Assembly: GCA_016868575.1 (NCBI GenBank)
Contig: VGGL01000019.1
Span: 1-35,716, forward strand
Length of the DNA: 35,716 nt
DNA from: Bacteroidota bacterium
GTDB taxonomy: Bacteria > Bacteroidota > Bacteroidia > Bacteroidales > FEN-979
Direction of reading: 5' to 3'
Every line of letters starts with the position of its first letter. Positions within the stretch are counted from its first letter, which is position 1. The notes under the pieces are model-generated. The model saw only the letters and a list, made by a program, of their open reading frames with translations. It had not been told where the DNA came from and did no database searches. Below, piece after piece: positions 15,657 to 34,402 of this stretch. A program made the translations under genes and the position numbers.

Positions 15657-15657
15657 A

Positions 15658-15723
15658 AATGGTGAAATGGTGAAATGGTGAAATGATGAAATGGTGAAAT
15701 GGTGAAATGATGAAATGGTGAAA
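15658..15723. repeat. Short tandem repeat (ATGGTGAA / ATGATGAA, 8-9 bp unit)
   Basis: aaatggtgaaatggtgaaatggtgaaatgatgaaatggtgaaatggtgaaatgatgaaatggtgaaa. Confidence 0.95.
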
Positions 15724-26440: not shown

Positions 26441-26480
26441 ATACAAAGAACAACACAATGATAACGATCGTCCATCAAAC

Positions 26481-26716
26481 ATCGTTGATCGATATTCCTC
26501 TGTTTGGTTCAAATTTCATCGTTGTTTCATTCCAGTGCCCCACGACCCTAGACCGGAAGAACCAAATATCGAACATTGATCAACGAGTTCCGAGATCAGA
26601 TCGGACATCAAATGTCGTTGATCGATATTCCTCTGTTTGGTTCCCAAATTCAGCGTTTTGGAATTGTTGTTCTTTGAAAATGGGATAGAAGAACCAAATA
26701 TCAATCATCGTTGATC
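26481..26716. repeat. Tandem palindromic array, left part (2 units)
   Basis: Units start at ATCGTTGATCGATATTCCTCTGTTTGGTTC (26481; 26615 for the second) and end with GAACCAAATATCGAACATTGATCAACGAG-like arms. Confidence 0.92.
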
Positions 26717-26804
26717 AAAACTCTTCTGTTAAAAAAAATATTCATCAGGATACGAACCTTTTCGTGTTTTTCCGATAAAGGATATAATCCTAAATCAAGA
26801 AAAA

Positions 26805-27179
26805 ATGAATCAAACCAGAAAATTCGATCTTGAGGATCGACTTGTGAAATTTGCTGTCGCTGTCTCTGCTCTGGCAGAGGGGTTACCGAGCACGATTAGC
26901 GGAAAATACCTATCTTCTCAGCTGATTAGGTCAGGATTTTCGCCAGCACTGAATTATGGAGAGGCAAAGAGCGCTGAATCAATCAATGATTTTATCCACA
27001 AAATGAAGATTGCTCTCAAGGAACTCCGTGAGACCTTTATTGCATTACGAATAATGCAGCACAAGAAATATGAGGGAATGGACAATCTTGTGGAATCTTG
27101 TTACGTTGAATGCAATGAACTCATTTCAATCTTTGTCAAGAGTATCCAAACAGCAGAAAAAAACCGAAAGCTTAAATAA
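26805..27179 (+). CDS. Four-helix bundle protein (23S rRNA-intervening-sequence / S23 family-like)
   Basis: FDLEDRLVKFAVAVSALAEGLPSTISGKYLSSQLIRSGFSPALNYGEAKSAES...FIHKMKIALKELRET. Confidence 0.9.
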   Translation: MNQTRKFDLEDRLVKFAVAVSALAEGLPSTISGKYLSSQLIRSGFSPALNYGEAKSAESINDFIHKMKIALKELRETFIALRIMQHKKYEGMDNLVESCYVECNELISIFVKSIQTAEKNRKLK

Positions 27180-27210
27180 CTGTTTTACAAGGAACAGATC
27201 GGACATCAAA

Positions 27211-27508
27211 TATCGTTGATCGGTATTCCTCTGTTTGGATCAAATTTCATCGTTGTTTCATTCCAGTGCTCCACGACCCAAGAATGAAAGATCCAAATAT
27301 CGAACATTGATCAACGAGTTCTGAGATCAGATCGGATATCAAATATCGTTGATCGATATTCCTCTGTTTGGTTCAAATTTCATCGTTGTTTCATTCCAGG
27401 GCCCCACGACCTTAGAACGGAAGAACCGAATATCGAATAATGATCAACGAGTTCTGAGATCAGATCGTCCGTCAAACATCGTTGATCGATATTCCTCTGT
27501 TTGGTTCT
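27211..27508. repeat. Tandem palindromic array, right part (2 full units plus 1 half unit)
   Basis: Units start at 27211, 27344 and 27478 (133-134 bp period), with linker gagttctgagatcagatcgg-atcaaa-at. Confidence 0.93.
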
Positions 27509-27558
27509 CCAATCCCAATTCATTCCTTTGTATCTTTGTCTTCTCGAAAACTTGTCCA

Positions 27559-29575: not shown

Positions 29576-29648
29576 CCATTGCCACGCCGCTGCGCGGCTC
29601 GCAATGACAATAATCACTAAATCACCAAATCACCCAATCACCAAATTC
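29576..29648. repeat. CATTGCGAG palindrome (inverted orientation) plus AATCACCAA tandem tract
   Basis: ccattgccacgccgctgcgcggctcgcaatgacaataatcactaaatcaccaaatcacccaatcaccaaatt. Confidence 0.92.
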
Positions 29649-30979: not shown

Positions 30980-31020
30980 CGACAGCAACGAACAACGAGC
31001 AACGAGCAACGAACAACGAC
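30980..31020. repeat. Short tandem repeat (CAACGAGCAACGAACAACGA)
   Basis: cgacagcaacgaacaacgagcaacgagcaacgaacaacgac. Confidence 0.9.
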
Positions 31021-34193: not shown

Positions 34194-34282
34194 TGTTTTC
34201 CACAAAATTGAAAATTGTCGATTGTCAATCAAATTGTCCATTTTCAATTGTACCTTGTACATCCATTCGCTCTGATTTCAGA

Positions 34283-34389
34283 CCTCGTTGATCAATGTTC
34301 GATATTTGGTTCCCTTATTCCGACTTCCAGGAGCAGGAAGAAGAAAACGGCGAACGTATGAACCAAACAGAGGAATATCGATCAACGAT
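34283..34389. repeat. Dispersed inverted copy of the 26-27 kb palindromic unit
   Basis: cctcgttgatcaatgttcgatatttggttc ... gaaccaaacagaggaatatcgatcaacga. Confidence 0.92.
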
Positions 34390-34402
34390 CTTTGAAGCGC
34401 GA

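Follow-up and report, generated by a model that had tools for sequence, protein, structure and literature searches.

A four-helix-bundle (4HB) gene of the S23p/IVP family and the palindromic repeats on either side of it, located in the 35,716-nucleotide stretch of Bacteroidota DNA analysed here (the window), probably represent one member of a widespread class of tiny mobile elements, in which such a gene lies between convergent paired arrays of 7- or 8-nt units. We conclude that gene and repeats belong to one element and that the class is a variant of the 23S rRNA intervening sequence (IVS) kind, with gene-less copies resembling REPINs. At ~0.4–0.7 kb and with one gene, these would be among the smallest gene-bearing mobile elements. 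If the reading is correct, the role of the S23p/IVP protein and the origin of the abundant bacterial 7-nt repeats become a single testable system, and the long-known orphan 7-letter repeats gain a likely partner protein.

The palindromic array and the protein of the window

Units 1, 4 and 5 of the array (Table 1) share a mutual identity of 88–92%, and single window units fold as hairpins with z values of -2.5 to -3.8 (-2.8 to -5.1 for other genomic copies), which bears out the tandem ~133-bp palindromic units that the original prediction had placed around the gene. The same prediction held that the array is broken only by ~490 bp that carry the gene. Units do lie on both sides, but a left arm upstream of the gene had been overlooked; this arm belongs to a third unit whose loop contains the 4HB gene and whose right arm is truncated. 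The truncation counts against the element reading. The array restarts at ~27192–27195, 3′ of the gene.

Table 1 Repeat features and the 4HB gene of the window.
Feature	Position	Strand	Remarks
Palindromic unit 1	26475–26607	+	Heptad left arm, 48-bp loop, heptad right arm; hairpin z -3.8
Partial unit 2	26608–26700	+	Left arm, loop and start of right arm, then fused to the next left arm
Unit 3 left arm	26701–26730	+	Score 30, 0/1000 shuffles; the unit 3 loop contains the 4HB gene
4HB gene P0001, S23p/IVP family, 124 aa	26805–27179	+	Profile matches, structure model
Linker remnant	27192–27205	+	Array resumes here; unit 3 right arm absent
Palindromic unit 4	27206–27338	+	Hairpin z -3.6
Palindromic unit 5	27339–27471	+	Hairpin z -2.5
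Half unit, left arm only	27472–27507	+	
Solo heptad array (CAACGAA)4.9	30986–31019	+	Without gene; YGA phase as in the window arms
Gene-less dispersed copy of the 133-bp unit	34265–34395	-	Hairpin z -2.8

The palindrome is not arbitrary. Its arms are made up of YGANNNN heptads in phase and parse as CGAACAT TGATCAA CGAGTTC TGAGATC, and three YGA trinucleotides spaced exactly 7 nt apart occur 18 times in the array region versus 0.16 times in shuffled sequences. The unit is also found without the gene at ~20 further places of the 2.84-Mb genome, one of them in the window, versus one place with the gene, and none of these copies adjoins another of the genome's own 4HB genes. The unit is not confined to the array around the gene. 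The gene-less palindromes, with no 4HB gene nearby, count against the element reading, as does the number of heptad arrays (27 with a 7-nt lag in 393 kb), which far exceeds that of the 4HB genes. A CCTTTT..CCGATTAA motif, common to the upstream regions of several genes, had only one match in 393 kb.

The predicted 124-aa four-helix-bundle protein was confirmed by profile matches to PF05635 (43.4 bits; curated cut-off 33.8) and TIGR02436 (71 bits; curated cut-off 24), and by an AlphaFold model, a four-helix bundle with a pLDDT of 90 whose closest PDB entries are 2rld (best) and 2gsc. No catalytic domain was identified in P0001. A location of the 4HB gene inside 23S rRNA was rejected: no rRNA was found in the window, and two conserved 23S motifs were absent from the 175 4HB loci in which they were sought.

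The model also resembles Avd of the diversity-generating retroelements (DGRs; 4dwl, TM about 0.7), and this Avd-like fold makes an RNA-copying route possible, in which the 4HB protein acts like Avd and a reverse transcriptase in trans copies the hairpin RNA into new sites. Sub-threshold matches of the bAvd profile in plasmid 4HB homologs agree with such a retro-element variant. Nevertheless, we consider it unlikely. The bAvd profile stayed below its cut-off or gave no match, no DGR parts lie beside the present gene, and no reverse transcriptase was found among the window neighbours examined, which encode a lyase, a Fib_succ_major protein, HydF and a short-chain dehydrogenase.

Repeat arms at other 4HB loci

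The reading of gene and repeats as one mobile element draws on other loci of the family. The source genome contains eight full 4HB genes, and six of the seven others have their own flanking repeats, which differ in sequence from gene to gene and consist mostly of convergent 7- or 8-nt tandem units. A wider survey covered 80 4HB loci, which record titles assign to ~15 phyla and which were selected solely by protein similarity, with a search alignment that included a consensus sequence. It revealed inverted arms between the left and right flanks (score of at least 28) at 39 of 78 loci versus 1.2% of 1810 null windows of matching geometry from the contigs of these loci. Roughly one in two of the distant 4HB loci has no clear inverted arm by alignment, which speaks against the element reading. 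Self-similarity at a lag of 7 nt reached the threshold in 52% of 160 4HB flanks and in 8.5% of 622 flanks of other genes, and at a lag of 8 nt in 17% versus 2.4%, with values near 1% in both sets at lags apart from 7, 8 and their multiples. The original prediction would have been refuted by repeat copies unlinked to 4HB genes and by homologs that are usually bare; the ~20 isolated copies agree with the former, but the homologs usually carry flanking repeats.

At least one heptad array is present at 87 of 129 4HB loci, and arrays occur on both sides at 57. At 39 of these 57 loci the heptads of the two arms agree in at least 6 of 7 letters, compared with 3.9% between arms of different loci. Thus, the arms are matched to each other while their sequence is not fixed, with 96 distinct heptads in 144 arrays. 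The strand running toward the 4HB gene is G-rich in 116 arrays and C-rich in nine. An AGK consensus for all heptads is not claimed, as 53 of the 96 distinct heptamers versus 34 shuffled ones represent a moderate enrichment only.

With kinship ignored, (AGKNNNN)6 arrays were detected in 46 of 53 related genomes with 4HB genes and in none of eight without, and, again ignoring kinship, in 52 of 88 phylum-level relatives (Bacteroidota) with 4HB genes and in 7 of 30 without, the last count speaking against the element reading. The reversed-pattern control for these AGK arrays is not independent, as KGA is also found in these heptads. The nuoK loci proved unsuitable as an array control because the nuoJ-nuoK junction is itself an insertion site.

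The repeat period tracks the protein family. GxxExxY genes (TIGR04256/PF13366), which are PDDEXK-like and nuclease-like, have inverted arms at 22 of 29 loci in related genomes, built of units of about 10 nt (CACAGAGTTA-like, of the CACAGAG/CACGAAG type; L253–L282). Their flanks reach the threshold at lag 7 in 2% and at lag 10 in 22% of cases, versus 64% at lag 7, 21% at lag 8 and 0% at lag 10 for 4HB flanks in the same genomes. Since the GxxExxY loci are laid out in the same way but around a 10-nt repeat, arms with repeats specific to the enclosed protein may represent a general principle.

Orthologs of P0001 (57–72% identical) often lie between nuoJ and nuoK, within YGAATAT heptad arrays. Among 27 nuoJ-nuoK junctions, nine hold a 4HB sequence in heptad arms, two a truncated 4HB sequence, nine only arrays or scars, one decayed arms and one a broken GxxExxY gene inside window-type arms, TTGATCAACGA / TCGTTGATCAA (L249), and five are clean. 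The series looks like one old insertion that has decayed repeatedly. The corresponding loci (L223–L252) display occupied, truncated, scar and clean states in one bacterial family, which suits the dating of decay.

The arm TGAATATCGAATATTGATCAACGAATGATGAAT of L215 bridges a plain heptad array and the palindrome arm of the window, and, judged by sequence, the window arms clearly derive from the heptad arrays at other P0001 orthologs. Of the 15 loci found with the window protein, 5 have the core arms TTGATCAACGA / TCGTTGATCAA at a distance of up to ~500 bp, versus none of the 36 further 4HB genes in these genomes; the source genome has a background of 4 per 393 kb. Such arms lie around P0001-type genes in four related genomes, and genome G001 has two close copies, so that the window subfamily also resides at more than one site.

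Occupied and empty insertion sites

Occupied and empty sites, which the original prediction had proposed to look for, were both found on cyanobacterial plasmids, with flanks up to 97% identical. In a trb-type conjugation region the element is present in plasmids of Trichormus variabilis and Scytonema, and the empty sites of Aulosira NIES-50 and Nostoc linckia NIES-25, with flanks ~97% identical, contain neither gene nor arms. Neighbouring gene junctions (sites A and B) in one region of Nostoc plasmids are reciprocally filled by two distinct 4HB elements, and for each element the other plasmid has a clean empty site. The TraM and nrd junctions provide further occupied/empty pairs, one of which has arrays but no gene. 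Plasmids of Aulosira and Nostoc carry elements 78–83% identical to that of Trichormus at unrelated positions (L160, L171, L172). At the closely read sites the insertions fall between the stop and start codons of adjacent genes. No constant target duplication emerged, with a possible 5–8 bp at site 1, a possible ~5 bp (one mismatch) at site B and none clear at site A.

These comparisons of plasmid sequences support the view that gene and arms insert and travel together. The empty sites by themselves do not tell gain from loss, and some copies could have been spread by recombination between plasmids. Together with the core arms near P0001-type loci and the orthologs in heptad arrays, this joint insertion supports the original proposal that gene and palindromes form one unit.

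The alternative offered by the same prediction, that the array is a hot spot where the gene landed, is disfavoured because the empty sites lack arrays. In its general form, with heptad arrays and palindromes as independent slippage products or MITEs on which 4HB genes merely land, this explanation draws on the excess of arrays over 4HB genes, the ~20 gene-less palindromes and the arrays in some genomes without 4HB genes. We nonetheless judge it distinctly unlikely: besides the array-free empty sites, the arms agree within a locus and differ between loci, related elements keep the same arms at unrelated sites, and the repeat period varies with the protein family.

Two plasmids carry different 4HB elements in the cas6-cas4 gap of a type I-D CRISPR system (L155, L158, L167), while the cas6-cas4 sequence differs in a third plasmid that is otherwise 98.9% identical to L158 across the parts that match, so this gap is a possible insertion hot spot. 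In two Calothrix brevissima NIES-22 plasmids (L149, L150) a 4HB gene with AGGGTGT arms lies directly downstream of a phage-type integrase gene, an arrangement common to both plasmids within a larger block. Spread by phages was rejected: a search of 50,697 phage records gave no match, and eight loci are on viral contigs.

Putative mechanism and relation to known systems

In the mobile element that we favour, the two arrays would pair so that the strand, either RNA or ssDNA, forms a long hairpin whose loop carries the gene, as in the 23S rRNA IVS. An oligomeric 4HB protein may recognise the heptad-phased arms by a logic like that of TRAP, which acts on (G/U)AG repeats, and would be needed for movement or maintenance. 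Because no catalytic domain was identified in the 4HB protein, the catalysis of movement would come from host enzymes or from enzymes acting in trans. Processing of the hairpin in the manner of the rRNA IVS could make insertion between the genes of an operon tolerable and so limit harm. Gene-less arms may be non-autonomous progeny or remains, related to the complete element as REPINs are to RAYTs. In the window the arms are YGANNNN heptads built up into a 133-bp palindrome, which is repeated on both sides of the gene and recurs elsewhere without it. Binding of the arms by the protein and its driving of movement are inferred, and its role in movement is the weak step of the explanation.

The closest known system is the 23S rRNA IVS with an S23p/IVP ORF (Coxiella, Leptospira; PMC4990558), which encodes the same protein family and is a suspected mobile element. 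In Coxiella, terminal inverted repeats form a 28-bp stem that holds the IVS ORF in its loop, and excision is by RNase III; the Xanthomonas S23p protein is a homopentamer (PMC4990558). Transcripts of six present elements likewise fold with 31–41 terminal pairs and the ORF in the loop. In contrast to the IVS, the present elements lie between protein genes rather than in rRNA, their arms are locus-specific heptad arrays, and they exhibit occupied and empty sites and gene-less dispersed arms.

The layout also matches REPIN/RAYT (PMC3116915), as originally suggested, in that a protein gene lies beside its own hairpin repeats, tandem clusters adjoin the gene, many gene-less hairpins are scattered genome-wide and several protein-repeat pairs coexist in one genome. 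The analogy fails at the enzyme: the present element lacks an HUH/Y1 transposase (the partner is PF05635), its arms are 7-nt arrays, and its gene sits in the hairpin loop and moves too. A related explanation, that the palindrome is a REPIN or MITE of a transposase encoded elsewhere (RAYT or IS) with the 4HB gene as passenger or accident, would account for dispersed hairpins that outnumber the gene, as REPINs do, and three Y1 transposase matches exist in the genome. None of the three Y1 genes has the palindrome as flanking arms (one core match lies ~870 bp upstream of L186), so that a REP of a RAYT is not supported; moreover, four related genomes have the core arms around P0001-type genes, and there is a gradation from these arms to heptad arrays of the 4HB type. 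We regard this explanation as very unlikely. Equally improbable is a host regulator that binds mRNA heptad arrays in a TRAP-like manner, with autoregulatory flanking arrays that are not parts of a mobile element: the elements lie between co-directional genes in 56 of 74 cases versus 60% of controls, phased repeats with variable spacers look like binding arrays, and Beggiatoaceae heptad arrays near start codons have been proposed as translational control sites (PMC4679880), but the elements are patchily distributed, leave scars, have empty sites and recur at unrelated positions, and each locus has a heptad sequence of its own, all of which opposes it.

The arms of the proposed elements resemble orphan heptanucleotide repeats (cyanobacterial STRR, GGGGA(C/T)T; GGGAATC; TAACTGA), which are intergenic 7-nt arrays, often convergent, in unrelated phyla, but which were described without a partner protein. 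Such repeats occur in Xanthomonas and Nostoc, often as convergent pairs, with 70–75 convergent GGGAATC pairs per Xanthomonas genome (PMC4692102); TAACTGA heptads are known from Beggiatoaceae and Microcystis, and heptads generally from Beggiatoaceae, cyanobacteria and Bacteroidetes (PMC4679880). S23p, 23S rRNA and four-helix-bundle genes are absent from the text of both papers. A full-text literature search, mostly without subscription journals and bioRxiv, returned no link between heptanucleotide repeats and the S23p family, and a prior description is possible. As a tentative extension, possible rather than probable, free-standing S23p/IVP genes with heptad arms may constitute a phylum-spanning class of self-moving hairpins with the 4HB protein, which has no known transposase fold, as mobility factor; the orphan heptad repeats of cyanobacteria, Xanthomonas, Beggiatoaceae and Bacteroidota would then be its arms and non-autonomous progeny, and the 23S rRNA IVSs copies that landed in rRNA.

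The window contains three further repeats. A 73-bp tandem repeat at 1877–2079 (2.8 copies, 97% match) has an internal GCGAGTCCCGAGCAATCGGGACGAAGCAAC palindrome. Two octamer arrays occur without a 4HB gene, (AAATGGTG)8.4 at 15657–15723 and (AATCACCA)4.4 at 29612–29646, and the latter matches the arm type of the 4HB locus L035.
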